Source: Cladocopium goreaui (taxonomy: Eukaryota > Sar > Dinophyceae > Suessiales > Symbiodiniaceae). From it: 64,000 nt of DNA. The position numbers and the translations under genes are program-made. The stretch is from positions 124,158 to 188,157 of the forward strand of contig CAMXCT020001006.1 of the NCBI GenBank assembly GCA_947184155.2, in the 5' to 3' direction. Below, piece after piece: positions 18-63,084 of this stretch. Position 1 is the stretch's first letter. Each line of letters opens with the position of its first letter. The notes beneath the pieces are model-generated. The model was given only the letters and a program-made list of their open reading frames with translations, ran no database searches and was not told the origin of the DNA.

Positions 18-105
18 GCAGGAGCATGGGGCCATCATGCAAACGCATGCCAACGAAGCTATGCATGATGGTGGAAGCCCGGGCTGATCACCCTGGTGTA
101 CCTGC
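18..105 (-). repeat. Structured pseudoknot element, copy E0
   Basis: Read on the minus strand it begins GCAGGTAC and ends CTCCTGC, with TGCAGG/CCTGCA able to pair as a closing stem. It carries the conserved loop TTCGTTGG. CCATCATGCA pairs with TGCATGATGG (10 bp), and GCATG after TTG pairs with CATGC, whose intervening loop holds the TGCATGATGG strand, so the two stems form a pseudoknot. The first hairpin is weak here (CCAGGG/CCCGGG, 5 of 6 pairs) and lacks the usual GCGTCC loop. Its tail would lie beyond the window start. Confidence 0.5.
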
Positions 106-5855: not shown

Positions 5856-6021
5856 GGAAGAGTGTGTGTATGTGTGTGTTGTTTGAAACCCGTTATTTCT
5901 TACGGATTTTATTACGATAGTTCAACTCTAGCAGGGATCAGGCTTCCAGCGACTGACCTAATCCAACGAAGCTGGGTCACTGGAAGGGAAGTGGTTTGAG
6001 GACGCTCAGCCATGTACCTGC
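5856..6021 (-). repeat. Structured pseudoknot element with AC tail, copy E5.9
   Basis: The core is 5931-6021 on the minus strand, from GCAGGTAC to CCCTGC, closed by AGCAGG/CCTGCT. A hairpin with loop GCGTCC follows the start. CTTCCAGTGAC pairs with GTCGCTGGAAG (11 pairs, one wobble), and GGATTAGG after TTCGTT pairs with CCTGATCC (8 pairs, one wobble), forming a pseudoknot. Downstream in its own sense come AAATAACGGGTTTC and an AC-rich tail at 5856-5880. It shares about 100 bp with the copy at 6852-6966. Confidence 0.6.
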
Positions 6022-6851: not shown

Positions 6852-6966
6852 TTGTGTGTGTGAAACACGTTATTTCATACGATTTTATTACAATAGTTCA
6901 ATTAGAGCAGGGGGATCAGGCTTCCAGTGACTGACCTGATCATACCTGATCCAACGAAGCTGGCCC
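6852..6966 (-). repeat. Truncated structured element, copy E6.9
   Basis: The minus-strand tail TGAAATAACGTGTTTCACACAC matches the E5.9 tail. The core from 6907 retains TTCGTTGG and a perfect GGATCAGG/CCTGATCC stem, but the 5' half (first hairpin and the 5' strand of the other pseudoknot stem) is gone. An extra direct repeat of TGATCAGG lies inside the loop. It is a close relative of the copy 1 kb upstream. Confidence 0.55.
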
Positions 6967-16712: not shown

Positions 16713-17155
16713 GCTCAGAACTGTCATTGCGAATTTTATTGTGGAATGCATCTTACGTGCAAAGACAATCCCTTTAAACCTGACAGGAGTAGGTCACTGA
16801 TGGGACCCGAAAAACAGTAAAAGTTGCCATCGCCATAGCCAGTGCTAAATAGAGTGATTTGGAAGCTGACCCTTCCCTTCAATTTTCAATAAAGAGATTT
16901 GCAGATTGCGACAACAGTGCAGTAAAAACAGGAAAACAATGCAAATGATCGACACGCCGGTTCTTGGCTTAGCCGATTGCCATTGACGAGAAATGAGAAA
17001 TCAGAAATTGGCGCAGGTACGCAGATTGGTGTCCCAATCTGTATCACCAGATCAAATGGGTGCCTTCGTTGGTAGCGGTCCCAAGTGATCTGCCGCTACC
17101 CCCTGCGAAAAGTATTTAGAAGTTTTACATCTCTTCAGACGGTTCACACACACAC
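16711..17155 (+). repeat. Retroposon-like repeat with pseudoknot core E1
   Basis: Starts CTTGCTCAGAACTG after an AC tract and contains GTGGAATGCATC, an upstream GGCTTAGCC hairpin near 16960 and the structured core at 17013-17106. In the core CGCAGG/CCTGCG closes the fold; AGATTGG/CCAATCT is a hairpin with loop TGTC; CAGATCA pairs with TGATCTG; GGTAGCGG after TTCGTT pairs with CCGCTACC, making a pseudoknot. The core is followed by AGACGGTTCACACACAC, an (AC)n tail. No protein is conserved between copies. Confidence 0.65.
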
Positions 17156-17159
17156 ACAC

Positions 17160-17512
17160 ATTTTTGGAAACATCCCGAATGGAGAGGATGATATGAGTTG
17201 AAATCATGTTACGTAGTGATTAGTGGCGGCATGGGTGGCTTTGGGCTTAGCCACCTCGCCATGTCTGATCAAGTGAGCCTAGCGAAGAGTTGCATTCGGA
17301 ACGGACAAAACCTGAAGCAGATCGAAGCAGCCTCATTAAAGTAACCGGCAATAGCAACTGTCTTGCAGGTACGCATTGTATATCACCAGGGAAGCCAGAG
17401 CGTCTGCGTTTGCGGTAGGCTCTGGCCCCTGCTACTAGGGTTTCCCACACATGCACGCATACAGACATACATACACAAACATACGGATGTACAATCGCAC
17501 ATACACACACAC
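17160..17512 (+). repeat. Retroposon-like repeat, divergent copy with reduced core
   Basis: Begins after the previous AC tail. It carries a GGTGGC/GCCACC hairpin around TTTGGGCTTA (17232-17260) flanked by CATGG/CCATG, and a shortened core at 17365-17432 running from GCAGGTACGC to CCCCTGC. The first hairpin is lost; GCCAGAGC/GCTCTGGC remains as a stem. An AC- and ACAT-rich tail follows to 17512. Confidence 0.55.
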
Positions 17513-17944
17513 ACTTGCTCAGAAACATCTTATCGAATTACTGATGTGGAATGCATCACACGTGCACAAACACTTCATTTAAACCTGACAGGAGAAAGTG
17601 GATGACTAGGCGTGAGAAACAGTGAAGAAGGATTCTTTCTACGTCCTTGCTAGAAGCAACTGTTCCATCTGACGAAGTCAGCAGTAAATCAGATTGCGAA
17701 AACCGTACAGGCAAAAATCAAATTTGGTTTGAAAGCCGGTTTGAAATTCAACTTGCCGGTTCTAGGCTTGGCCGGTTGCCATGGACGAAAATGAAAAAGA
17801 TTGAGCAGGTACGTGGATTGAGCGTCCCCAATCCATATCACTGTGCAACAGATGCGTCTTCGTTGGATGGAGACATCTGAAGCACACTCCATCCCCCTGC
17901 TAAGAAAGAAGTTTTACATCTTTACAGATGGTTCACACACACAC
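17511..17944 (+). repeat. Retroposon-like repeat, copy E2
   Basis: Starts CTTGCTCAGAAACATC, about 65-70% similar to the 16711 copy. The core 17805-17900 has AGCAGG/CCTGCT closing, GGATTG/CAATCC hairpin, TGTGC-CAGATG pairing with CATCTG-GCACA, and GGATGGA/TCCATCC, the last two forming a pseudoknot. It ends CAGATGGTTCACACACACAC. The 77-codon open frame across it is not shared with other copies. An almost identical copy lies 1360 bp downstream. Confidence 0.65.
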
Positions 17945-18870
17945 ACCCTCCCGCAGGAGGGTGAGAAATTAAGGTCCCGACCATGAGATGGAAATGAAGA
18001 AGAAAGGAAATGAAAATGAGGTGAAGATGACAATGAGATGAAAGTTACTTAACCAGGACGCAAAGAGGGGAACGCAAAAGAAGAGGGAAGGAGAAAACAC
18101 CAACACATGAAACCTAGCCCAAAACGGGCAACCCTGGAAAGGCAAGGGAAAAGAAAAGCGGAGGCCGACGGAAAATGGAACAAGACCAGCGGAGGAGGGG
18201 GAAGACAGAAGCGCCTGAACCAACCTGACACGGCGCAAACCAACAACAACCTCAGCACGCAACGGGCCAAACCTACCTGGAGGGAGGAGAACGCAAGAAC
18301 ACATGAAACAGGAAGAAAAAGGGACCCATGGGGAACTAGTTAATGACATGATGCATCCACAACGCATGCAGTATTCGTGATAAGGCTCAAAGGCCCTCGG
18401 CATTCAAGTCACAACCCTCTGGACAGCTTACGTGTTCAACCCCTGAATTAGGTGCACAATTGAACCTCACCAACGACCAAAAAGAAAGAAGCACCATACC
18501 TGCAAGGATGTCCTGTTGCCTGATCATGAAAGAAAAGGTGAAGCCAGGCACAGCGGCACGTTGTTCAACACATCGACGTCGACAGGTGAGACCTGGAAAA
18601 AAGGCCGACTGTTTCACATTACTTACACGAATTATTAATTCAAAAGTGTAAATTCAGACAAAAGAAAGGTGAGGCCAGGCACAGCGGCGAGCAGTTCAAC
18701 GCATCGACATCGACAAGTGAGACCAGGAAAAAAGGCCAGCAGTTCACATTACTTAGACGAATTACTAATTCAAAAGTGTAAATTCAGACATCGGTTTACT
18801 GTCCATTTTTAGCCTAGAAAGGCTTTCCCCAAAGGGTTCCTGCCAACTTGACGTATGCAGCAGGAGAGAC
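17945..18870 (+). other. Insert between two identical repeat copies
   Basis: Begins with a palindrome CCCTCCCGCAGGAGGG, continues purine-rich, and contains a tandem pair of about 131 bp (about 18529-18660 and 18661-18790; both include AGCCAGGCACAGCGGC-like and ATTCAAAAGTGTAAATTCAG). I recognise no gene. It interrupts, or was duplicated together with, the flanking retroposon copies. Confidence 0.5.
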
Positions 18871-19304
18871 ACACTTGCTCAGAAACATCTTATCGAATTA
18901 CTGATGTGGAATGCATCACACGTGCACAAACACTTCATTTAAACCTGACAGGAGAAAGTGGATGACTAGGCGTGAGAAACAGTGAAGAAGGATTCTTTCT
19001 ACGTCCTTGCTAGAAGCAACTGTTCCATCTGACGAAGTCAGCAGTAAATCAGATTGCGAAAACCGTACAGGCAAAAATCAAATTTGGTTTGAAAGCCGGT
19101 TTGAAATTCAACTTGCCGGTTCTAGGCTTGGCCGGTTGCCATGGACGAAAATGAAAAAGATTGAGCAGGTACGTGGATTGAGCGTCCCCAATCCATATCA
19201 CTGTGCAACAGATGCGTCTTCGTTGGATGGAGACATCTGAAGCACACTCCATCCCCCTGCTAAGAAAGAAGTTTGACATCTTTACAGATGGTTCACACAC
19301 ACAC
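18871..19304 (+). repeat. Retroposon-like repeat, copy E2' (duplicate of E2)
   Basis: Near-identical to 17511-17944 at a constant offset of 1360 bp (one difference noted, GTTTTACATC to GTTTGACATC). The core is at 19165-19260 and the tail (AC)n ends at 19308. The identity implies a recent duplication, in contrast to the divergence of the other copies. Confidence 0.7.
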
Positions 19305-19640
19305 ACACTTTTGAAAGACCGCATGTCGTCGATGGTTAGATTGATAACTCAAGTGAGTTGTGGGAAATTTCCCATTAAGGCCTTATATTGCCGTAATCGA
19401 CATGGGTGGTTTTTGGCTTGGCCACCTTGCTATAAGATGGACAAATAACCTGGTTCCTCTAAAGTTGAAAAATGGGGATTCTGCACTTCGGAACAGGTAC
19501 GCGGATTCTGCGTCCAGAATCCGTTTCAGTGACTTGTAACAGCCTTTTTGTTGGACTGCCACTGTTACAAGTCAGGGAGCCCCCCTGTTTCAAACATTAA
19601 CTGAGAAAACCGCGCAAACGAACAGCCCCTAGGAACAGGG
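19305..19640 (+). repeat. Retroposon-like repeat with core E19.5
   Basis: Carries the GGTGG/CCACC hairpin around TTTTTGGCTTGG at 19406-19428. The core 19493-19587 starts ACAGGTAC and ends CCCCCCTGT: the closing stem has changed to AACAGG/CCTGTT, a paired change relative to GCAGG/CCTGC. The first hairpin is GGATTCT/AGAATCC around GCGTCC. TGACTTGTAACAG pairs with CTGTTACAAGTCA (13 bp). The second pseudoknot stem is not convincing here. The tail is GGTTTGATTCACATACACAC. Confidence 0.6.
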
Positions 19641-41623: not shown

Positions 41624-41766
41624 GGTTATCAGCTGCATTTGCTCTTGTTTGACCGTTTTTGGGGATTTCATTTCATAGGTTGCCAGGTGCCTTAAACCTG
41701 GCACACATGTCGTTGCGTCGGCCGTGACCTGTGAATCTTTGTTGGTAAAAGGCTGGAACAGGAATC

Positions 41767-42669
41767 ATGTCAGATCCAAACTCCTCATCCTTGAACCTGT
41801 CATCCGAGTCCATCGATGTTAAGGGAGGTGCAGTCACAGTTCATTCATCTCGAAGCCGAAGTTCATCCGGGACTCCAAAATCAGGAGGACGGTCGTCAAG
41901 AACAAAACAAGCTTCAACCGTGAATCAGCCTCGAAAAGTTTCTCAAGTTATCAAGCGCTTGCCAAAGCCATCAGATAATGAGCGTGCCATGTTACCAGTT
42001 CCTCTTGCGCATAGTTCCGCATCGGCCTCCCAACCTTCGACTTTCATTCCCCAAGAGCCTAGTGGTCAGCCTGATGCCCGGATGCATCATTCACAGACGG
42101 TCCAGTATCATGATCACCGCACTCAGCAAGTGAATGTTGGTGTTGATCCCATGGACTTTGCCAACATGGTCTCCGAGGCCAAGAGGGTGGTTCAGGAATA
42201 TGATGAAAGAATCCAGGGGTTGGAAGGCTTAGCTCAAGATGCGTACAGCCAGGCTTGTTCACGTATTCAGGAGTTGCTTGGTGTTGTTGAGAGCCTTCAG
42301 CTATCAAATCAAAGATTTCAAAATCAGATCCATCAATTAAATTCAGAGGTGGCCAATGTTCGCGCTCAGTTGGAGCTTCAAGTTACTTGGAATCACGACT
42401 TGGGTAGCAGAGTTGAATGCTCCGCCAGCATGTTAGACCACAAAGAGGGCGAAATTTCACGACTGATGGATGAAATCCACCAGCTGAAGGATTCGGTCGA
42501 CTCCCAGCGTTTGGTTTTGGAAGAATCTCAAGCTCAGAACCTGTCCCTTCGTCAACGCTGTCGAGATATGGAGATGAGTTTGGCTGCACGAAGCGCCGCT
42601 CAACCAGTTGATCAAGTCAGGTCTGATGCTCCACCTCCTCCGGCCTTTCAGCGCAATTGCTATCCATGA
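41767..42669 (+). CDS. LTR-element Gag, N-terminal part (coiled coil)
   Basis: 300 codons starting ATGTCAGATCC. Residues 1-110 are Ser/Pro/Gln-rich and probably disordered. From about 130 to 285 there are heptad-like repeats (for example RIQELLGVVESLQLSNQ and DEIHQLKDSVDSQRLVLE) typical of a coiled coil, fitting Gag self-assembly. The stop TGA at 42667-42669 overlaps the ATG of the next frame at 42666. The next frame is in the -1 register and is open upstream, so a single-base indel or a programmed shift are both possible; I see no classical slippery heptamer. Confidence 0.65.
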   Translation: MSDPNSSSLNLSSESIDVKGGAVTVHSSRSRSSSGTPKSGGRSSRTKQASTVNQPRKVSQVIKRLPKPSDNERAMLPVPLAHSSASASQPSTFIPQEPSGQPDARMHHSQTVQYHDHRTQQVNVGVDPMDFANMVSEAKRVVQEYDERIQGLEGLAQDAYSQACSRIQELLGVVESLQLSNQRFQNQIHQLNSEVANVRAQLELQVTWNHDLGSRVECSASMLDHKEGEISRLMDEIHQLKDSVDSQRLVLEESQAQNLSLRQRCRDMEMSLAARSAAQPVDQVRSDAPPPPAFQRNCYP

Positions 42670-43298
42670 TGGAAGCTTTGCAAGATCTTTCGACTCGTAT
42701 GTCAGCGGTTGAAGATGCTCAAGAGATTCACGTCGATCAAGTTCAGAGCCATAATGGCGCGGCAGTGTCTTTTCCGTTTCCGCCTTCTGGTCTTCCTCCA
42801 AGACCTCGTTCTTTTCGAGCACTTGCCGGATCAGGGGGGCCAGGGTTTGCATCAAATGATGGCGGAGATGGTTTTGACGATGACGATGAAGAATTAGTTC
42901 GAGATCGCATGCCCCAAAGCTTTGCCAGTCACAGGGATCTAGTTGAGAGGGACATTGTGGATGCTCGTTCGCTTCGGTATGCCACATTAGGTCCGGTTCC
43001 TTCCAGTGCTTCGGATTTCAGAGCTTGGAAAAACCAGTTGTTGCTGATCATGGCAAAGTTGGATATCAGTGATAGGGATTACTTAGCGCATTGGCTTTCC
43101 AAAGCTTATGAAGTGAATTCCGATGAAGTAATCAAGCATGATTCTGGTTGTGTTCCGCGTTTAGATCGTTGGTTGGCAGCTGAAATTTCAAAAGGTTGTG
43201 AGAATGTGCCTGAGTTGCAGTTCAAGATCATGGGGTACATTGAAGGATGCACTCGAATTGGAAACCCGCCCAGGGACAGATACTTGTTGCACATTGTT
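42666..43298 (+). CDS. LTR-element Gag, middle part, cut by insertion
   Basis: The frame beginning MMEALQDLSTRMSAVEDAQ contains a proline-rich linker, an acidic patch (DDDDEE) and a capsid-like helical region around FRAWKNQLLLIMAKLDISD. At 43298 the host sequence ends in CACATTGTT and the nested element begins; the apparent stop at 43302 belongs to the insertion. The same frame resumes at 51176 without loss or gain of bases. This is the likely reason the outer element is inactive. Confidence 0.7.
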
Positions 43299-43434
43299 GA
43301 TTGAAACACGTAGTGTGTAAGGAACAATGAGACACTGCGAAACAGACGGTGGGAGGAGGTTTGCTCTCATCGCCATTTTGGGTCAAGAAGAGAGCACGCC
43401 ATTTTGGCTCAAGAAGAGAGCACATGTCTGAAAC
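43299..43434 (+). repeat. Split direct repeat A1 with tandem spliced-leader relics
   Basis: Starts GATTGAAACACGTAG and matches A2 at 50851. Positions 43372-43387 (GCCATTTTGGGTCAAG) and 43398-43413 (GCCATTTTGGCTCAAG) are copies of the 3' 16 bases of the dinoflagellate spliced leader, 15 of 16 and 16 of 16, in a 26-bp tandem duplication with AAGAGAGCAC. A2 has only the first. The gag ATG lies 29 bp after the second relic. Confidence 0.85.
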
Positions 43435-43442
43435 TGGCTGAC

Positions 43443-45002
43443 ATGTCGACCACTCTGGGCTCTGGCCCTCGTTGCCGGATTTTCTCCTTTCTGCTCTGCG
43501 GATTTATTGCCGCGTGGTGCCTTGCTACTGCATATCATCTGTTTGACTGCATGGAGCCTAATGAAGCCACTGCAGCAACTTTCACGAACATTGATCTCAT
43601 TGCGCAGTGGGCCGGCATTGATGGCGCACGAGACAATCCACAAACTCCGAGAGGGTCACTCTTTCGATTACTAGGCCTGCACGGAGCAGAGCCACCAAGG
43701 ATTGTAGCCGTGTTGCCGCCTGCCGACATTCAGGCAGTGTTAGCCACTTGGATGATCCCAGCAGATGCACCACCTCACGCTCCGGCACCTCCTACCATAG
43801 CCCAACAAGGTCAAGTTGGAATTTTCCTACGGACATGTCGCTGGAAGTGCGGCATTTTGCCTGCACAACTTACACCACCAGCACCACCAGTCACTGCTAC
43901 GCCGGCACCAGCAGCCGGTAGCTCGGGGGCTCGAAAGATCAAAATGGCCATGGTGATAAACCAAGCAGATGACGAGGAGGTTGACAACCTCGACCAAGTA
44001 GCTATCACCCAGGCCTACAAGACCTACAGGGAACGAGTGGGAGGATTCCCACCAGATGATGAAGAACTCAGTGGAGAACAGCTTTCCACGTTGTATGCGT
44101 TGTTCAAATCAAACCGTGCACCTTACACGGACATGGCAGTTTGGGGCCCGTTTCAACATCGCATTCAAAAGAAGATCAAGATGAAGGGCATGCGATTCAA
44201 CGCTGCTGGTGAAATTCTTCCCATCGAGATGTATGGGCCGGCCGATTTTGAGAGCTGGCGCGAATGCTACATGGTGTTTCGAACCGGAGCCATCATGTTC
44301 GAACAGATATCACCTGCAAAGTTGGATATGTATGAGAAGCTCATCAGGCAATATCATGAAAGATACGGGCGTGTTTGCTGGCCCATAATATACCAAGCTG
44401 ATGTGAGGGCCAGACAAGAACAAGTGGAGAGAGTTCGTCGACGTGGGCAGGAGTCTTTTGACACAGCACAACGAGCCGGGCTGAGTCACGACTTTGATCC
44501 CGCGAGACCGTGGGAATGGGTCTGGGGTGAGTTGACCCTTGATGTCAACTTCTGGAACCGCGAAATTACAGAACCCTGCATGTTGTATCTGGCCAAGACG
44601 TCTAGCATCAACCAGTTACTTGACAATGATGCACCTATTGCCAAAGCACCGCCTGGCCAGAACATCTTCTCTGCAACTTCGACTACAGCAAGAACACCTG
44701 ACACCTCCAGGACGTCCACGAAGCGACCAAGAGGGCCGGATGTTCGCGAACACAAAGTGGGTGAAGATGGGCTATATACTCACAATCGCAGAGGCATTGA
44801 GTTGTGCAAGTTGTTTCAGTCTGGCGAATGTGTGGAGAAAGACCAGCGCGGTGCGTGCGCAAGGAACTCCACCCGACGACACCAGTGTGCAAAGTGCCTG
44901 TCGGATCACCATGGCGCCAGCAAATGCCCCTCGGATGGACCACCACGACCTCCGAGGCAAAACCATGGAAAGGGCAAGGGCAAGAGCAAAGGCAAGAAGT
45001 GA
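43443..45002 (+). CDS. gag: YR-retrotransposon Gag with CCHC zinc knuckle
   Basis: I start it at ATGTCGACC (43443); an upstream non-ATG extension runs through the spliced-leader relic. It has 519 codons. The N-terminus has a hydrophobic stretch (FSFLLCGFIAAWCLATAYHL), then Pro/Ala-rich linkers, a charged central region and a basic C-terminus. Near the end a nucleocapsid-type knuckle C-AK-C-LSDH-H-GASK-C fits CX2CX4HX4C exactly, preceded by another Cys/His cluster, then a Gly/Lys-rich RNA-binding tail. The stop is TGA followed by C, and the frame stays open through 14 further codons into the pol ATG at 45045. Confidence 0.8.
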   Translation: MSTTLGSGPRCRIFSFLLCGFIAAWCLATAYHLFDCMEPNEATAATFTNIDLIAQWAGIDGARDNPQTPRGSLFRLLGLHGAEPPRIVAVLPPADIQAVLATWMIPADAPPHAPAPPTIAQQGQVGIFLRTCRWKCGILPAQLTPPAPPVTATPAPAAGSSGARKIKMAMVINQADDEEVDNLDQVAITQAYKTYRERVGGFPPDDEELSGEQLSTLYALFKSNRAPYTDMAVWGPFQHRIQKKIKMKGMRFNAAGEILPIEMYGPADFESWRECYMVFRTGAIMFEQISPAKLDMYEKLIRQYHERYGRVCWPIIYQADVRARQEQVERVRRRGQESFDTAQRAGLSHDFDPARPWEWVWGELTLDVNFWNREITEPCMLYLAKTSSINQLLDNDAPIAKAPPGQNIFSATSTTARTPDTSRTSTKRPRGPDVREHKVGEDGLYTHNRRGIELCKLFQSGECVEKDQRGACARNSTRRHQCAKCLSDHHGASKCPSDGPPRPPRQNHGKGKGKSKGKK

Positions 45003-45044
45003 CTGAAGGAGAGCACGGCACTGCATGAGAATTCAGGAGCACAA

Positions 45045-48000
45045 ATGAAGACAGTGACGATGACACCTTGTCTGACAGAGGCTCCGCAATTACAGAATAG
45101 CACAGGTGAGTCAATGACCAGCACAACAGCAGCTGATCACGGGCTCCAGCAGTTTCACAGCAACGAATGCAAATGCATATTGCACCTTTTTAGCGGGCCA
45201 TCAGGACGCGAAGACGGCTTTGCAGCAGCAGTCAGGGACAGAGGCCACAAGTGTGTTGAATATGACCTGGTGAATGGTACAGAACAAGATCTGGCGAATG
45301 ATGCAGTTTGGCAAAGTCTGATCTCCGACATCCGAGCTGGAAGGTATGATGCAATGCTTGCAGGACCACCCTGCAACACCTACACCAATGCTCGTCAACT
45401 AGATGGATTGGGACCTGGCCCTCTTAGGGGAGCTACAGGTGACGACCGATATGGGTTGCCTCACCTCCGGCCGGATGACCAGATCAAGGTGCGAACTGGA
45501 ACCTTGCTGGCCGTTCGCACGGCTGAAGCAGCCACAGCGATGGATGAGCTGGAAAAGCCATGTGTTGTTGAACAGCCACGATGGAAACAGGATGTGAACA
45601 GTGTCTCCATGTACAATCTGGATGAATATACAGATTTGTTGGCTAGACCCCATGCACGCACTGCCGACTTGGTGCAATGTGAGTATGGGGCCAGGACTAC
45701 GAAACCAACCACGCTGGTACTGGTCAACATTGGTGGGGAGGCCCTGCAAAATCAGTGCTCGCACCCACCACAGCAGTGGGTAAAACCTAGCACAGGAGAA
45801 CGCCTCTGGGCGCCGCACCCACCATTGAAAGGCAAAGAGTGGTACATACCTGCTCAAGACTGGCACCAGGACATGCTGCTCACACCAAGGCAGATCCAGG
45901 AAAAGTTCCGGAATCAACCATATCTCACGACAGAAGCTCAAGCATACCCTGCTCAGATGAATCGCATGCTTGCGGACCTCCTGCTTGGCAGTGCTTTGGC
46001 TCATGCAGGACCCGTGAGTCAGCAGCCGGAATATTTATTGGTTGGCAAGTGGAAGAATGTTCTCAAAAGGAAACCTCTCCTGCAGAACGACATCACCACA
46101 CGCACCAAAGTGGAATTCACTGCCCCCTTAAAAGGCAAGCGTCGCAGAGTTCAAGACCGAGATGACTTGGACATGAAATACTGGGGGGGCATGAGATGCC
46201 CAAGGAAGATTTCATCTGAGATACCTGGCTACCGGCAGGCAGGTGTGCGAGTGTACAATGTACTCACAAAGCTTCTACATGAGGATTCCACACTGAAGAG
46301 GCGCTGCTTGGATGCCATAGGTTCAACCACAGACTGCGCTGGCCCCACTGAAGCACAGCTTGCTACCTGCTTCAGTGCACTAAAGCGGGAGTTTGTGCAG
46401 CATGATGAGGTGACCATGGCATCGCTGGACAGTAAGCTAGAAGCCGGGCTGATATGGCACATCGCGAGGACCATGGGTGATCCTGACGCAGACACCATCT
46501 ACACTTGGCTGACGGAAGGAGCTCCAGCCGGCATATCCATGAGCATTACAGATCCCGGTGGCATTTTTCCACCGGACAGCCAAGATGACTTGGAACAGAC
46601 AGCCGACCAGCTGCTGCCTGACCCTACCCTGCATCAAAATTACAGCTCGGTAGACAACGACGATGCAGCTGCCCCTGAAGTGCTGCGCTTGATCGAAACT
46701 GGGTTTGTCACGTCATTTGCCACATGCGCTGAACTGGAGCATTGGCTAGGCGCCAAGCCGCATTTGTCCAAACTCGGTATGATCACCAAGGAGAAGGACG
46801 GTAAAGTCAAGCGCAGACTGATTCTGGATTGCAAGGAAAGCGGGGTCAATAAAATGGCAGTTAGTGGAGGCAAGCTGCAACGACCAAGGACATCGGATGC
46901 AATAGACGATGCATTGTATCTGATGAGTCAATGTAGCGCAGACCACGGTGACACTGTGGAATGGCTCATCCTTGACTACAGCGACTGGTTCTACAACGTT
47001 CCATTACACCCTTGCGAAAGGCCACACTTCACATGGCAGTATGGCAAGCACTGGGTTGCCTTCCGCACACAAGCACAAGGCAGCAAAAACGCCCCCTTGG
47101 TGTGTGGACGGGTGGCTGCGCTGATTGCGCGCATCACCCAAGCAACCTTTGGAGATCAACGCCTGCGGCTTCAACTGTACGTGGACGACCCCTGTGTATG
47201 TGTTCGTGGCACAGATGAGGAGCGCTCCCATCTCATGGCAGCCACAATCCTGTTTTGGGCTACACTGGGAATCAGGCTGGCCTACAAGAAGGCAGCAAGG
47301 GGCACCGACGTAGTCTGGATTGGAGCTGAATTACAGCTGCAAAACCAGGGCCAACATGATGCTCACCTCATAGCCAGTGCCAAACCCGACATCCTTGCGG
47401 AAGTCAAAGCTGCCACCGATGATCACACCAAGGTCAACTTGGTGAATCGTAAGGCACTGCAGACTTACATCGGCAAACTCAACCACGTGGCGGGCATTGT
47501 TGAATTCTTGCGGCCCTTCCTGTCGGACCTCTACGGCGTCCTGCATTGCACCATGAACAGCAAGGCACCAACAAATTGCTACTGGACTAGGCAATGGCAG
47601 CACGTCACACACTGGCTCATGGCCTTTTTCAATCGAGAGCAAGGTGTAGTGCAACGAATTTACCGGGTGCAAGCATACTTTGGGAGAGGGCTGCAAGTTT
47701 CCATAGTGACCGACGCCTCACCCTGGGGCCTCGGCGGCTACCTCATGATTCAGAACTCAGTGGTGGCCTACTTTAGTAGCCCAGTGACAAAGGATGACGA
47801 ACACATCCTTGGAATCCCCATCGGCGATGCCGCTGGACAGCAAGTGTTGGAGGCTCTGGCAGTCTTGGTTGCGCTTAAGATGTGGCGCAAATACTGGTCA
47901 AAGTCTGGCATTTCTTTGCGAATCAGAAGCGACAACGTTGCCACACTCACACTTTTGGTGAAACTGCGTCCGAGCTACAAGTCCAAGGGGCTCGGCATTG

Positions 48001-48263
48001 TCGCGAGGGAACTCGCATTGGAATTTGGATCGGCCAGTTACAAGCCTAGAATCTTCCAACACATCCCAGGCCTCACTAATGATTGGGCTGATGCACTGAG
48101 CCGACAGCACCAACCAGGAAAAGAAACAACGTTGCCTGCACCTTTGCTGCGAGCCAGAGCAGATGAGCCACCAGCCCGAAACCTGGCCTTTTACCAGTCG
48201 GCCATGGGCCGCTACGCACAGCACAAAGATGGGGCCCATTGCGTGACTGCGGAACGAACGTGA
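45045..48263 (+). CDS. pol: YR-retrotransposon Pol: methyltransferase-like, RT, RNase H
   Basis: 1072 codons, in the same frame as gag. Residues about 45-240 resemble a DNA cytosine methyltransferase: LHLFSGPSG (46-54, SAM-binding motif I), acidic EYD (72-74), AGPPC (106-110, motif IV with its Cys) and EQP (176-178) in place of ENV/ENP. The reverse transcriptase spans about 575-765, with LILDYSD (641-647, catalytic Asp), QGSKNAP (678-684) and YVDD (712-715). RNase H follows: TDAS (889-892), E936, SDN (962-964) and ADALSR (1015-1020), the D-E-D-D set. There is no protease or integrase. In DIRS-1-type elements the methyltransferase is Dam-like and lies after RNase H, so this order and type are unusual. 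It would copy the element RNA into DNA in concert with the recombinase encoded downstream. Confidence 0.9.
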   Translation: MKTVTMTPCLTEAPQLQNSTGESMTSTTAADHGLQQFHSNECKCILHLFSGPSGREDGFAAAVRDRGHKCVEYDLVNGTEQDLANDAVWQSLISDIRAGRYDAMLAGPPCNTYTNARQLDGLGPGPLRGATGDDRYGLPHLRPDDQIKVRTGTLLAVRTAEAATAMDELEKPCVVEQPRWKQDVNSVSMYNLDEYTDLLARPHARTADLVQCEYGARTTKPTTLVLVNIGGEALQNQCSHPPQQWVKPSTGERLWAPHPPLKGKEWYIPAQDWHQDMLLTPRQIQEKFRNQPYLTTEAQAYPAQMNRMLADLLLGSALAHAGPVSQQPEYLLVGKWKNVLKRKPLLQNDITTRTKVEFTAPLKGKRRRVQDRDDLDMKYWGGMRCPRKISSEIPGYRQAGVRVYNVLTKLLHEDSTLKRRCLDAIGSTTDCAGPTEAQLATCFSALKREFVQHDEVTMASLDSKLEAGLIWHIARTMGDPDADTIYTWLTEGAPAGISMSITDPGGIFPPDSQDDLEQTADQLLPDPTLHQNYSSVDNDDAAAPEVLRLIETGFVTSFATCAELEHWLGAKPHLSKLGMITKEKDGKVKRRLILDCKESGVNKMAVSGGKLQRPRTSDAIDDALYLMSQCSADHGDTVEWLILDYSDWFYNVPLHPCERPHFTWQYGKHWVAFRTQAQGSKNAPLVCGRVAALIARITQATFGDQRLRLQLYVDDPCVCVRGTDEERSHLMAATILFWATLGIRLAYKKAARGTDVVWIGAELQLQNQGQHDAHLIASAKPDILAEVKAATDDHTKVNLVNRKALQTYIGKLNHVAGIVEFLRPFLSDLYGVLHCTMNSKAPTNCYWTRQWQHVTHWLMAFFNREQGVVQRIYRVQAYFGRGLQVSIVTDASPWGLGGYLMIQNSVVAYFSSPVTKDDEHILGIPIGDAAGQQVLEALAVLVALKMWRKYWSKSGISLRIRSDNVATLTLLVKLRPSYKSKGLGIVARELALEFGSASYKPRIFQHIPGLTNDWADALSRQHQPGKETTLPAPLLRARADEPPARNLAFYQSAMGRYAQHKDGAHCVTAERT

Positions 48264-48936
48264 GAAGAAGGCATGGCCGCAAAGCAGTGACTGTAGGGCA
48301 AAGACCCAGTTTCAAAGGAAAACCTGACCGAATGCCAAATTTTATTTTATTTGCTTGATCACCTGCCAATGTACTGTGACACCACCAGCCTTTCACAGTT
48401 ATTTCGAGCGCGGTCACCCGCTCGTGCATCTGAGCGTGGTCCCCGCTCCGCAGAGGAAATCACACATGTAGTGCATCATCTCCTCTTCTGACGCGTATAT
48501 TCTCCTTCCTCCATTATTCGAGTAGTATATAGTTATACGCGTTGTTGCATTTCCAGCATGTTGGCTTATTTGCTTGCCGCTCAGGAGAAGGGCCAGTCAG
48601 CACAGGCAAGGACTGCACATGACAGTTTACGATTTGCCTGGGTGTCGTCCCAGACTTTGCTTACGGAACTGCAACTGACTGACTGATCAGACAATCCTTG
48701 TGCACTTGCATGTCGTTTGTACTATGTCATTGCTAGTGGTCAAAACTGCGGATTGCAGACATTGCTTACGGAACTGCAACTGACTGACTGATCAAACGAT
48801 CCTTTTTTGCAACTGCATGTCGTTCGGTCCATGTCCCTGCATAGTGATGAAAACTGCTGATTCCACAGTGGCACACACACACACACCAACCGTGTCGCCG
48901 CAGTATGTTGGGCTTGATTGAAACTTTTGCTCAAAG
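48264..48936 (+). other. Pol-recombinase spacer with 105-bp tandem duplication
   Basis: No gene. Two units at about 48654-48758 and 48759-48861 share GCTTACGGAACTGCAACTGA, CTGACTGATCA and GCATGTCGTT at an offset of 105 bp. Directly before the recombinase ATG stands CTTTTGCTCAAAG, vaguely like the spliced leader. The spacer could hold a promoter or trans-splice acceptor for the recombinase. Confidence 0.5.
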
Positions 48937-50604
48937 ATGACGAGGAAACGTAAAAACGTAGGCCTCCCTGTGATCTCTCTCACTCAAATCAAACAGGCTG
49001 GGCCTGACGTTTGCTCGCCAAAGGCGGTAGTAGCTCCCGTCGATTGCGGTGCAGCCGCTGAATCGAGAAAGCCCGCAACTGTCACTAGACTGGAGCCTAC
49101 CGCTCGTCCCTGGTTGGCTGAAAGAAAGGACACTCCTGTTTGCAATTTTAGCCGAAGAGCCAGGAAACCTGAGGAGCCAACATGGACCGAAAGCCAGAGA
49201 GATGAGGCGCTTGCCTCGCTGAGAAGGGATTATATAGCGAACAGTGCTAAGGGGCCTGCTTGCTCGGTCCTCAAAACTTGGGAATCTATGCATCGCCGAA
49301 TGCACGACCCTGAGATTCCAACGTATCCTTTGACACCTGACAAAATAGCCAGAGTGGCGGCGGCGTTCAAAAGATGTGGCTACCGTAGCTTTAGCAATTA
49401 CATGTCACGGGCCAAAGAAGCCCACGTGCAGATGTTTGGTGATTGGGGTGTTGATTTGGCAATGGAAGCCCGTAGGGCGGGCCGGAGTGTGAACCGCGGA
49501 CGCGGACCTGTCTCTCAGAGATCTCCACTTGACTTTGATAGGGTCCTCGAATACCAGAAGGATCGCAAAGTGAATCTCGAACCCTTGGTGACAGGTGGGC
49601 CCGTGGGCGCACACAATTTGATTGTCATCGGCACCTTTTTCATGTTGCGCGAGATCGAAGCTTCCCTGCTTTTGTTCATGAATGTCAGACTGGAGGATGC
49701 CACTCGGACGGTCACGCTGAAGTTGCCGTGCAGCAAAACTGACCCAGCTGCCGCCAGCGTGGAACGTAGCTGGGGTTGCCTGTGCAGCATTCACGGCACG
49801 ACCGGGTGCCCTTACCATTCAGCTAAGTTGCAATCTGAATTCTTGAGACTCCTCTTTGGTGAGATTGACAATAACGTAGAGCTCCCTTTTTTCCCACAAC
49901 GGGACGGCTCGACTGTTGACAAAATTCGAGTAGTGGAAACTTTCGAACAGTTGCATCATTTTCTCAATATCCCCTATCAGGACGAAGATGGTGCCAGGCT
50001 GTTAGGCGGACACAGCATGCGTCTGGCAGGTGCCAGGTTCCTGTCCTCTTCAGGACTTCATTTATATCAGGTAGAGCTGATGGCGAGGTGGCGGTCACCA
50101 ATGCTGTTGCATTATGCTCAGACTGCGCCACTCTGCAAAATCACACAAATATATGAACAAGCTAGGAGCAACTCTGACAATTCACACTTGTTGGAACAGA
50201 TCAAATCACAGATGCATGTGCTTGACAACGCTGCTAGGATACCCGGGGCCGACCAGGCACAATTCGAAGAACGCGTTGGAATCCTAGAAAATGATCTCAG
50301 ATCGCTTGACCACCGAACTCGGCAGATGATCCAGGACGAGATCATACAGGTCAGGAGACAGATGCTCACACGCCCATCTGAGTTTATTTACAACATTTCC
50401 TCACGCACCTGGCACGTGTCACATACTGACGGAATGGCCTATTTGCCGAATTGTTGGACAACAAAGTGCGGTTGGAAATTTGCATTCTCCAAATTCACAC
50501 GCAGCATGGATATTCCCTCTGCGAGCTCCAGAAGGTGCGATAAATGCTGGCATGACAAACATGATTCAACTTCCAGCAGCGACACGTCAGAGAGCGAATC
50601 ATGA
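48937..50604 (+). CDS. Tyrosine recombinase of the nested element
   Basis: 555 codons. The catalytic set is complete: R238 (FFMLREIE), K267 (CSKTD), H359 and R362 (HSMR), W385 (MARWRSP) and nucleophile Y393 (LLHYAQ). Residues about 90-180 look like the N-terminal DNA-binding helices. A Cys/His cluster C281-x-C283-x7-C291-x2-H294 is inserted between the Lys hairpin and HxxR, and a second cluster (NCWTTKC ... RRCDKC) lies at the C-terminus before a Ser/Glu tail; both may bind zinc. A coiled coil is likely around 430-490. It would insert the circular DNA form at short shared sequence. The single-ORF recombinase downstream of RNase H is typical of DIRS, Ngaro and PAT elements. Confidence 0.9.
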   Translation: MTRKRKNVGLPVISLTQIKQAGPDVCSPKAVVAPVDCGAAAESRKPATVTRLEPTARPWLAERKDTPVCNFSRRARKPEEPTWTESQRDEALASLRRDYIANSAKGPACSVLKTWESMHRRMHDPEIPTYPLTPDKIARVAAAFKRCGYRSFSNYMSRAKEAHVQMFGDWGVDLAMEARRAGRSVNRGRGPVSQRSPLDFDRVLEYQKDRKVNLEPLVTGGPVGAHNLIVIGTFFMLREIEASLLLFMNVRLEDATRTVTLKLPCSKTDPAAASVERSWGCLCSIHGTTGCPYHSAKLQSEFLRLLFGEIDNNVELPFFPQRDGSTVDKIRVVETFEQLHHFLNIPYQDEDGARLLGGHSMRLAGARFLSSSGLHLYQVELMARWRSPMLLHYAQTAPLCKITQIYEQARSNSDNSHLLEQIKSQMHVLDNAARIPGADQAQFEERVGILENDLRSLDHRTRQMIQDEIIQVRRQMLTRPSEFIYNISSRTWHVSHTDGMAYLPNCWTTKCGWKFAFSKFTRSMDIPSASSRRCDKCWHDKHDSTSSSDTSESES

Positions 50605-50657
50605 AAAATCGGCCAGATTTTCAGTCTTTGATTGCAACAGCCAGTTGTGACCATAAC

Positions 50658-51175
50658 GGAAATTTGAGAATGTCTCAATTGTCTGCCAGGACGCACTGGA
50701 GCGGCACACCTCCAGAGCGGACACATTCGGTCACACCCAGGCTGGGCACCAGGGGGTGGATTCCCCTCTGTGGACCCAGATCTAAAACTTACGGCAATCA
50801 TCAGAGAAAAATGGCAGGGAGGGTGGGCATGTTTGAAAGTGTCGATTGTTGATTGAAACACGTAGTGTGTAAGGAACAATGAGACACTGCGAAACAGACG
50901 GTGGGAGGAGGTTTGCTCTCATCGCCATTTTGGGTCAAGAAGAGAGCACATTTCTGAAACCCCGCCCGCCACAAAACCCTGGGGAAATTTGAGAATGTCT
51001 CAATTGTCTGCCAGGACGCACTGGAGCGGCACACCTCCAGAGCGGACACATTCGGTCACACCCAGGCTGGGCACCAGGGGGTGGATTCCCCTCTGTGGAC
51101 CCAGATCTAAAACTTATGGCAATCATCAGAGAAAAATGGCAGGGAGGGTGGGCATGTTTGAAAGTGTCGATTGTT
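50658..51175 (+). repeat. B1-A2-B2 terminal repeat block
   Basis: B1 50658-50850 and B2 50983-51175 are 193 bp each, differing at one base (ACTTACGG, ACTTATGG). A2 50851-50949 equals A1. Each B ends GTGTCGATTGTT, and B1 abuts A2 directly, reproducing the circle junction. A 33-bp spacer (50950-50982) separates A2 and B2. A2 keeps one spliced-leader relic at 50924-50939. Confidence 0.9.
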
Positions 51176-51760
51176 TCCAGGCATTTTGACATTGATCGCG
51201 CTCGTGGTTCGTTGCTTACTTCGCAATCGATCTTTCAAATAGGGCTTGATGGTTACAGTGCCAAGCATTTGCAAGAGTTTTCAGGTCGTGTCCTTCGCGC
51301 TTTGAATAGTGTGCCGCAGGAAGATTGGCCATCTCAGCGCATGATGGGTGAGTGGTTGTTTCATCAGTTGAGGCAAGTTCGCAAGTTGAAAAGGACCATT
51401 GATGAGATCAAGAGGAGCGATGCTCAGTCGCCACTCCGTGATTTTGATCATCTTTGGAATAGGTTGCAGGAACACTTGCTTGAAGAAAGAGAGGACATCA
51501 ATGCGCAATCAATTGAAAACTTGTTGAAGTCCAGCTTGCCAAAGAAATTGCAGCCCGACAAGCCCACCAGTGCGCCTGCTGCCATCGCTCCGTCGTCTGA
51601 ATCGAAGACCTCCCCAAAGGGTAAAGCCAAGGGAAAGGGAAAAGCAATGACAGCAGAGCAAAATGCCAAAATAGCGTGCATCTTCCGTAGGATGCCTACC
51701 GGATGCGTCCATGGAGAGAAATGCCAGTATCTCCATGAGCCTGCTCCCTCACCTTCCTGA
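51176..51760 (+). CDS. LTR-element Gag, C-terminal part with CCCH finger
   Basis: This continues the frame cut at 43298, beginning SRHFDIDRARG. It contains a helical segment with RVLRALNSVPQEDWPSQRMM, a basic Lys/Gly linker, then a zinc finger C-x8-C-x5-C-x3-H (CIFRRMPTGCVHGEKCQYLH) and the stop at 51758. CCCH fingers replace the CCHC knuckle in many dinoflagellate Gag proteins. The upstream open frame into B2 sequence is accidental. Confidence 0.7.
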   Translation, partial: SRHFDIDRARGSLLTSQSIFQIGLDGYSAKHLQEFSGRVLRALNSVPQEDWPSQRMMGEWLFHQLRQVRKLKRTIDEIKRSDAQSPLRDFDHLWNRLQEHLLEEREDINAQSIENLLKSSLPKKLQPDKPTSAPAAIAPSSESKTSPKGKAKGKGKAMTAEQNAKIACIFRRMPTGCVHGEKCQYLHEPAPSPS

Positions 51761-62819: not shown

Positions 62820-63084
62820 CACAAACACATATATATATATATGTGTGTGTTATTATATAATATATATATATACATGTATTATAGTACATGTGTGTGTGTG
62901 TGGTGTGTGTGTGTGCGTGTGTGTGTGTGTACACCGTTATAACAAACGGTTTTAGTTCTTTTCATTGCTCTTGTACTATTCTAAAAAGCAGGGGGCAGAG
63001 GTACCCATGTCACTTCCTCTGCCAACGAAGCTGGGTGACATGTGGTAAGGATATAGATCAGGGACGCCTGATCTACGTACCTGC
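62820..63084 (-). repeat. Structured pseudoknot element with AC tail, copy E63
   Basis: The core is 62988-63084 on the minus strand, GCAGGTAC to CCCCCTGC, closed by AGCAGG/CCTGCT. First hairpin TAGATCAGG/CCTGATCTA with loop CGTC; CATGTCAC pairs with GTGACATG; GGCAGAGG after TTCGTT pairs with CCTCTGCC, giving a pseudoknot. Downstream in its own sense are ATAACGGTGTACACACAC and a long (AC)n tail (62820-62932). It is the best-formed copy in the window. Confidence 0.65.

Follow-up and report, generated by a model that had tools for sequence, protein, structure and literature searches.

A covarying pseudoknot in the terminal repeats of putative Penelope-like retroelements of a dinoflagellate

The pseudoknot in the 5′ RNA of R2 is a retroelement structure proposed to bind reverse transcriptase (RT). 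Among Penelope-like elements (PLEs), the Chlamys and Naiad types reportedly have an N-terminal EN layout, with GIY-YIG placed N-terminal to the RT and a CxC motif, and they are also said to be without canonical hammerheads; both points are attributed to Craig and co-workers in 2021. For PLEs at large, a 2017 review gives hammerhead motifs, usually minimal, in all PLE sequences then available (PMC6155905). The hammerhead of the PAc PLE cuts only with protein and is dispensable for insertion in vitro (PMC11167929). Elsewhere, plant retrozymes make circular RNAs via LTR hammerheads (PMC4918200), an HDV-like ribozyme lies at the R2 5′ end (PMC3774820), and the fold of the 5′ module of the R2 template influences insertion (PMC11331408). 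By its own account, a 2025 paper on Ectocarpus (PMC12477816) was preceded by no report of PLEs in the TSAR supergroup.

The window analyzed here, a 64-kb stretch of DNA from the dinoflagellate Cladocopium goreaui, holds a structured element that the initial annotation had described as nine copies on both strands. Reading all nine places, we found full copies at seven; the other two (6907-6966 and 17365-17432) are damaged, and the copies at 17805 and 19165, being identical and lying inside 438-bp repeats that are 99.8% identical, are one by descent rather than two. Their distribution over both strands fits insertion in either orientation. A covariance model built from 20 families, with the pseudoknot left out, recovered eight of the nine places, that at 6907-6966 being missed. 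The matches at 17013, 17805, 19165, and 62988 are largely a matter of construction, since these are seed members, an identical copy, or a near relative; the four copies at 18, 5931, 17365, and 19493 are independent of the model seed.

Table 1 Copies of the structured element and associated features in the window. The minus strand of 17013..17106 is taken from ORF orientation in related elements.
Feature	Position	Strand	Remarks
Structured element	18..105	+	Model match 47.8 bits, E 1.1e-7
Structured element	5931..6021	+	Model match 44 bits, E 7e-7
Truncated copy	6907..6966	+	One P1 side, S2 with insertion, one S1 strand; read, missed by the model
Structured element	17013..17106	- (putative RNA strand)	5′ GCAGGGGGTAGCGG... 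3′; model match 77.8 bits, E 3.9e-14; copy in model seed
P1 closing stem, GCAGG side	17013..17017		Partner 17102-17106, CCTGC; invariant in 20/20 rows of alignment A3
P2 hairpin	17022..17041		17022-17029 pairs with 17034-17041; sequence and covariation
S1 first strand, plus orientation	17048..17060		Partner 17080-17092; AA/AG internal loop mid-stem; covariation and family layout
Conserved CTTCGTTGG (RNA strand CCAACGAAG)	17064..17072		Alignments; CGTTGG required by the search pattern, CTT not required
S2 first strand	17071..17078		Partner 17093-17100; covariation
S1 second strand, inside S2 loop	17080..17092		Family layout
P1 closing stem, CCTGC side	17102..17106		Sequence
Shortened copy	17365..17432	-	Read; model E 0.019
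Terminal direct repeat (pLTR) copy 1, short element without long ORFs	17509..17946	-	438 bp, 99.8% identical to 18869-19306
Structured element in pLTR copy 1	17805..17900	-	Model match 87.3 bits; in model seed
Terminal direct repeat (pLTR) copy 2	18869..19306	-	438 bp, pairs with 17509-17946
Structured element in pLTR copy 2	19165..19260	-	Identical to 17805-17900
Structured element variant	19493..19588	-	ACAGG/CCTGT closing stem, 13-bp uninterrupted S1, S2 6/8; model 56.6 bits
Structured element	62988..63084	+	Model match 82.2 bits, E 4.2e-15; near relative L061 in seed

Read on the coding strand, the element runs GCAGG (P1), G, S2, S1 within the S2 loop, S2′, CCAACGAAG, S1′, a linker, the P2 hairpin, GTA, and CCTGC (P1′). 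S2 is 8 nt long, GG followed by six variable positions, and encloses a loop that in 29 of 33 families measures 13 or 14 nt; most of this loop is taken up by one strand of S1. The stems, the loop motifs, and the interleaved pseudoknot order are as first described.

We searched the organism's own genome (1,165,616,438 bases, or 1.17 Gb, in 6,202 contigs) with a loose motif pattern, GCAGGTAC-(30-60)-CGTTGG-(15-45)-CCCTGC, and obtained 2,868 matches (1,390 forward and 1,478 reverse), a count that leaves out diverged copies; the number of elements is somewhat lower because some matches overlap, ending at two close CCCTGC sites. The reversed loose pattern had no match in the same genome. With two stricter patterns for the coding strand, the genome counts were 631 and 378, and the controls again had no match. 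Elsewhere, the loose pattern matched 79 viral contigs and at least 120 prokaryote contigs. All eight positions of S2 are paired in 42 of 50 distinct matches from the element's own genome, and seven of the eight in a further 5; among 170 distinct viral and prokaryote matches of the loose pattern, full pairing of S2 was never seen, and the best, a single match, reached seven of eight. These viral and prokaryote matches therefore look like chance rather than relatives. A tighter sense-strand pattern had no match in the viral contigs, and a distant search of plasmids with one element copy gave no match.

From the fetched loci we drew a sample of 53 distinct copies, which fall into 34 families at 85% identity. 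That many stem families among 53 sampled copies of one genome make an unusually rich natural covariation set for a pseudoknot structure. Statistics on stem pairs, wobbles, bulges, energies, and P2 loops are based on 33 of the 34 families, a fused double match (L036:440-538) having been dropped, and the swap test on 32, with L036:1501-1581 dropped as well.

Positions 3 to 7 of S2 use all four Watson–Crick pairs and are paired in 31 to 33 of the 33 families, compared with 9.1 to 10.2 when partners are permuted. Permutation figures for S1 and P2 resemble those of S2, but those pairs had been chosen by a parser that favors pairing. The swap test, in which own and foreign partner strands are treated alike, is a fair one. 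Over the 32 families, own strands gave 20.2 for S1 (11.2 swapped, 11.2 shuffled), 15.4 for S2 (9.0 swapped, 8.7 shuffled), and 16.8 for P2 (9.9 swapped, 9.9 shuffled), and the own pair exceeded every swap in 25, 21, and 12 families, respectively. In MAFFT alignment A3 (20 families), 92.4% of cells over the whole pseudoknot are paired; there are 178 two-sided changes, against 53.3 (SD 5.9) in shuffles, and the score is 0.666, against at most 0.158 for slid versions. Alignment A4 (60 distinct rows) holds 411 two-sided changes against 127.5 and scores 0.733 against at most 0.133 when slid, stronger numbers that lean toward structure because its rows were fitted to the model. Further pair types in A4 showed no excess (58, against 59.6 in shuffles). 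The proposal that the stems differ between copies and stay complementary thus withstood swapped, shuffled, and slid controls for S1, S2, and P2 in 32 or 33 families. Covariation beyond both shuffled and slid controls points to a conserved structure, probably of an RNA.

Covariation of the closing pair, which had also been claimed, proved weak. P1 is nearly invariant (GCAGG/CCTGC), the first pair is A-T in the 19493 copy, and an extra pair flanking P1 is Watson–Crick in 21 of 33 families against 14.3 expected by composition. The invariance of GCAGGTAC, CGTTGG, and CCCTGC is partly ascertainment, since all three were required by the search pattern; two features that the search did not require are the CTT ahead of CGTTGG, kept in at least 90%, and the TC in the TATC region, which shows no change over 33 rows. 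P2 loops are palindromic in 20 of 33 families (TGATCA in 14, TGGCCA in 3, and GACGTC in 3), and those of the remaining families are GCGTCC (11), TGAGCA (1), and one other. A kissing-loop dimer formed through the P2 loop is not a general explanation, given the 13 of 33 loops that are non-palindromic and the absence of P2 from a mobile subfamily. In this tandem-forming subfamily, found on C22, C80, C408, and C500, the P2 hairpin has been lost and S1 is very rich in GC.

Searches of Rfam 15 at gathering scores gave no match in the window or in seven loci. With the threshold relaxed to E ≤10, two loci of the element on C98, one stretch of the window, and three more loci yielded nine weak matches to other families, none of which overlaps the element and none of which is a ribozyme; the initial annotation's statement that the element answers to no named RNA agrees with Rfam 15 wherever it was tested. 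Among open-licence papers on PLEs or on dinoflagellate self-cleaving ribozymes, judged by title and the start of the abstract, none describes a pLTR pseudoknot. In literature joining dinoflagellates or Symbiodiniaceae with Penelope, the word is an author's first name in PMC6722697 and a reference entry in PMC13421374. The best reading of the element is a structured RNA that has its own fold and resides in the terminal repeats of retroelements, new relative to Rfam 15.

What the initial annotation missed is that the element, as judged from the sequences around it, belongs to the pLTRs of Penelope-like retrotransposons and of short relatives without long ORFs. Every one of the 11 pairs of same-variant copies that we compared is situated in terminal direct repeats of 282-553 bp that are 94.3-99.5% identical, and a free-standing RNA gene family is rejected on this ground; the repeats of the C98 element are 581 bp and 99.5% identical. 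Many copies of a variant have a partner on the same strand, at a distance of about 1-1.5 kb or 5-15 kb, or stand in rows; others occur singly (about 100 places listed per pattern). Tandem rows of three to four copies, spaced 1.13-1.48 kb apart, are present on C14, C97, C80, C326, and C408. Six units with 1-1.4 kb between elements have kept the element and contain no open stretch longer than 161 aa there. In 31 of 34 families, (CA)4 or a longer run occurs no more than 200 bases from the element, target (CA)n and the element's own (CA)n not being told apart; in the elements inspected, the ends of the repeats continue into (CA)n. In 27 of the 34 families, a hairpin flank resembling GTTTTACATC is found at no more than the same distance.

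Additional hairpins surround the element. A conserved AGAAGTTTTACATCT..AGATG hairpin adjoins the (CA)n at the pLTR end (for example, window 17907-17931), and in several families a GC-rich hairpin lies beyond the (CA)n (for example, window 17947-17961), with stems that differ (CCTCCCGCAGGAGGG, CCTCGCATATAGCGAGG, and CCCGGCCAGAGCCGGG); this GC-rich hairpin is possibly a start signal for reverse transcription. On the other side of the element, upstream in the GCAGGTAC orientation, a second hairpin is present in 18 of 34 families; it combines a covarying 4-bp stem with a conserved 12-nt loop resembling TTCTTGGCTTAG, as at window 17754-17777 (TGCCGG TTCTAGGCTTGG CCGGTT).

The C98 element is 12.6 kb long and has eight main ORFs of 223-923 aa on the strand that reads CCAACGAAG; on the opposite strand between the repeats, the longest ORF is 163 aa. 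RT motifs are present in the 923-aa ORF, where the RVT_1 match is weak (E 0.036, 14.2 bits; cut-off 29.6), and RVT_1 is matched at E ≤0.5 in 27 of 34 aligned relatives (best 1.5e-5). The RT consensus motifs read GSPMGSPLSP and RYVDNRL. Between the putative EN region and the RT lies a CxC motif whose C376 and C378 are each conserved in at least 90% of 34 sequences. Pfam gave a weak GIY-YIG match (E 0.19) in 1 of the 34 relatives, at residues 88-174 of P0001, N-terminal to the RT, and YIG...DREQSRMRK was seen by eye in one diverged relative in which Pfam found no GIY-YIG. Solved-structure searches returned nothing useful. Protein searches gave 181 and 127 relatives, 120 of each being listed; the sole organism named among the 120 listed of the 181 is the dinoflagellate Durusdinium trenchii. 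The best 49 of 1,875 first-look RT candidates scored are all intact and 98-100% identical, so part of the RT family is young. On this sequence evidence, the carriers appear to resemble Chlamys/Naiad-type PLEs and would be assigned to the PLEs.

Relative to the RT of the C98 element, identity over aligned parts is 45% on C29 (510 aa), 34% on C28 (111 aa), and 23% on C24 (728 aa), and the same structured element is carried by all of these PLEs. Its modules have been exchanged: L023 with L060 and L031 with L046 share S1 and S2 and differ in P2, and L037 with L055 share P2 and differ in S1 and S2. The presence of the element in diverged PLEs may therefore partly reflect recombination rather than strict descent. 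The 12.6-kb element (L057 and L058) has many extra ORFs (for example, L057:9061-9855 and its neighbors), one of them with a Myb-like domain that is also present in L262; such ORFs are, to our knowledge, unusual for PLEs. A separate retroelement-like ORF series occupies window 41749-51760 on the plus strand, with RT and RNase H signals in 45003-48263. The end of its ORF 48922-50604 looks tyrosine-recombinase-like by eye (no Pfam match), and the series is possibly DIRS-like.

In all seven elements with coding matches (on C98, C15, C29, C28, and C24, and two on C47), the coding strand is opposite to the GCAGGTAC orientation. The RNA strand is likely to be opposite to the one initially annotated and would read GCAGGGGG...CCAACGAAG...GTACCTGC. 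We infer that the element is transcribed and that it folds at the RNA level rather than at the cDNA level.

Because the element occurs in PLEs whose RTs are 23-45% identical and in six units without long ORFs, it probably meets a need that autonomous units share with those without long ORFs, in a cis-acting, non-coding role. Its retention by units without long ORFs favors RNA processing, template choice, or strand transfer over translation, and a translation signal (IRES or frameshift) is unlikely, since six such units keep the element. The mechanism that we propose starts from a conserved cis-acting RNA domain in the pLTRs of Chlamys/Naiad-like PLEs and their short relatives without long ORFs. 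This domain would fold into a ring-like pseudoknot closed by P1, with an optional P2 hairpin and GUAC before P1′, and would act as a self-cleaving or protein-assisted self-cleaving ribozyme in the place that the hammerhead holds in canonical PLEs. It would cut tandem or read-through transcripts into unit templates, and the cutting would precede target-primed reverse transcription at (CA)n.

We tentatively take the element to be a conserved pLTR RNA domain of Chlamys/Naiad-like PLEs and, most likely of the functions considered, a self-cleaving ribozyme, possibly one assisted by protein. With slightly more reserve, we suggest that it may belong to a new class of self-cleaving ribozymes, in which P1 closes a pseudoknot ring whose core is CCAACGAAG/GUACCUGC, and that would replace the hammerhead in N-terminal-EN PLEs and process tandem transcripts; as part of the same suggestion, the stems would be free to turn over completely between families and the core would be fixed across RTs that are only 23% identical. 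Self-cleavage is ranked first, and RT binding a close second, on the analogy with the hammerhead and R2 and on the constancy of the core across very different RTs, a self-acting RNA being expected to tolerate RT divergence better than a specific protein–RNA contact would. Several points count against a ribozyme. A known ribozyme core is not recognizable; the rarity of G.U pairs is unusual for an old RNA family and is compatible with a DNA-level fold; and the hammerhead of PAc needs protein and can be dispensed with for insertion in vitro (PMC11167929).

The element may instead be a protein-binding RNA, a possibility that we regard as real and somewhat doubtful, in which the RT or an accessory ORF product would bind the pseudoknot near the 5′ end and in the 3′ repeat and thereby select the template and order strand synthesis. 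Several features would suit such a site: the element stands near the start of the coding-strand pLTR and is repeated at the 3′ end, it persists in units that have no long ORFs and must recruit the enzyme in trans, and its unpaired CCAACGAAG is conserved. A parallel is offered by R2, where insertion is affected by the structure of the template's 5′ module (PMC11331408). However, the same core serves RTs that are 23-45% identical, and a binding surface would need to have diverged much less than the remainder of the protein.

The geometry of the two interleaved stems bears on whether they form together. S1 almost fills the S2 loop, and in most parsed families 0-2 linker nucleotides are left on either side, little room for two complete helices to coexist. 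In energy, the nested alternatives hardly differ (median -29.4 kcal/mol for the S1 form and -28.4 kcal/mol for the S2 form, the S1 form being lower in 20 of 33 families). As the unconstrained minimum falls below both nested forms (median -35.0 kcal/mol), folding programs alone fail to pick the pseudoknot, and a switch or a partly different fold is possible on these modeled energies. S1 and S2 could then be alternative folds of a bistable switch, for example one that frees the template or times processing during transcription. We consider this unlikely in view of the bulges in the parsed S1 stems: 22 of 33 families have them on the strand that lies outside the loop and 4 on the strand within it, with A accounting for 17 of 30 bulged bases; on geometric grounds, this is the arrangement expected of coexisting helices. 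An S1 bulge would bend the helix for loop closure and would favor both stems at once.

Wobble pairs in the stems of the 33 families are few and without strand bias, G.U and A.C numbering 5 and 6 in S1 and 3 and 3 in S2. Their rarity would be in keeping with a fold that acts in single-stranded DNA (a displaced strand or the cDNA of the first strand), where it might serve template jumping or the formation of junctions, for instance, and the GCAGGTAC strand would be the cDNA strand of the coding orientation. Inside P2, however, A.C occurs 10 times and G.T once in the GCAGGTAC orientation, corresponding to G.U on the coding strand, a lean that comes in part from one damaged family. We know of no PLE step that uses such a folded cDNA site, and we judge action in DNA to be improbable, more so than a switch. 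Immediately outside P2, 31 of 33 families have a wobble-type pair (G.T in 22, A.C in 8, and C.A in 1, on the GCAGGTAC strand); the absence of Watson–Crick pairs at this position follows from the construction of the parser, and the rarity of other mismatches there does not. G.U and A+.C are isosteric. Ordinary inverted repeats, arising by palindrome-forming repair or inherited within a hairpin-rich repeat without selection on structure, might be suspected in a window rich in simple repeats in which copies within a family are nearly identical, but they are very improbable in the face of the swap, permutation, and slide controls and the absence of full S2 pairing from all 170 chance matches, and the palindrome-generating repair that the initial annotation had named as an escape is a poor fit to two interleaved stems at fixed positions with conserved single-stranded motifs.

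If the element is self-cleaving, it would constitute a new natural ribozyme fold present in very many copies and would explain RNA processing in PLEs without a hammerhead. If it binds RT, it would provide a defined template signal for a little-studied class of retroelements and a handle for a transposition assay. Either way, the element points to PLEs in a dinoflagellate, within TSAR, where PLEs had been unreported before the Ectocarpus paper, by the account of that paper (PMC12477816).

In its setting, the element is like the pLTR hammerhead of PLEs: both are compact structured RNAs found at both terminal repeats, in tandem rows, and in units without long ORFs, which have kept them. It is unlike the hammerhead in its fold, a P1-closed pseudoknot for which self-cleavage is only proposed, and no hammerhead appeared in the Rfam searches. 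With the HDV-like ribozymes of R2 and other target-primed retroelements it shares a pseudoknotted RNA near the 5′ end of the retroelement transcript, and the CGAA at the S2-to-S1 junction recalls the J4/2 segment of HDV, whereas there is no P3 hairpin between the interleaved stems, no HDV match in the Rfam searches, and an extra closing stem, P1. The pseudoknot in the 5′ RNA of R2, proposed to bind RT, is likewise a retroelement RNA pseudoknot; in the element described here, by contrast, the stems turn over completely between families. Among the Chlamys/Naiad PLEs, the C98 element would stand apart by its 12.6-kb length and its several extra ORFs, including the Myb-like one, whereas the CxC motif, the pLTRs, and the tandem insertions are alike, and the weakly matched N-terminal GIY-YIG-like region and the (CA)n as putative target may be so as well.
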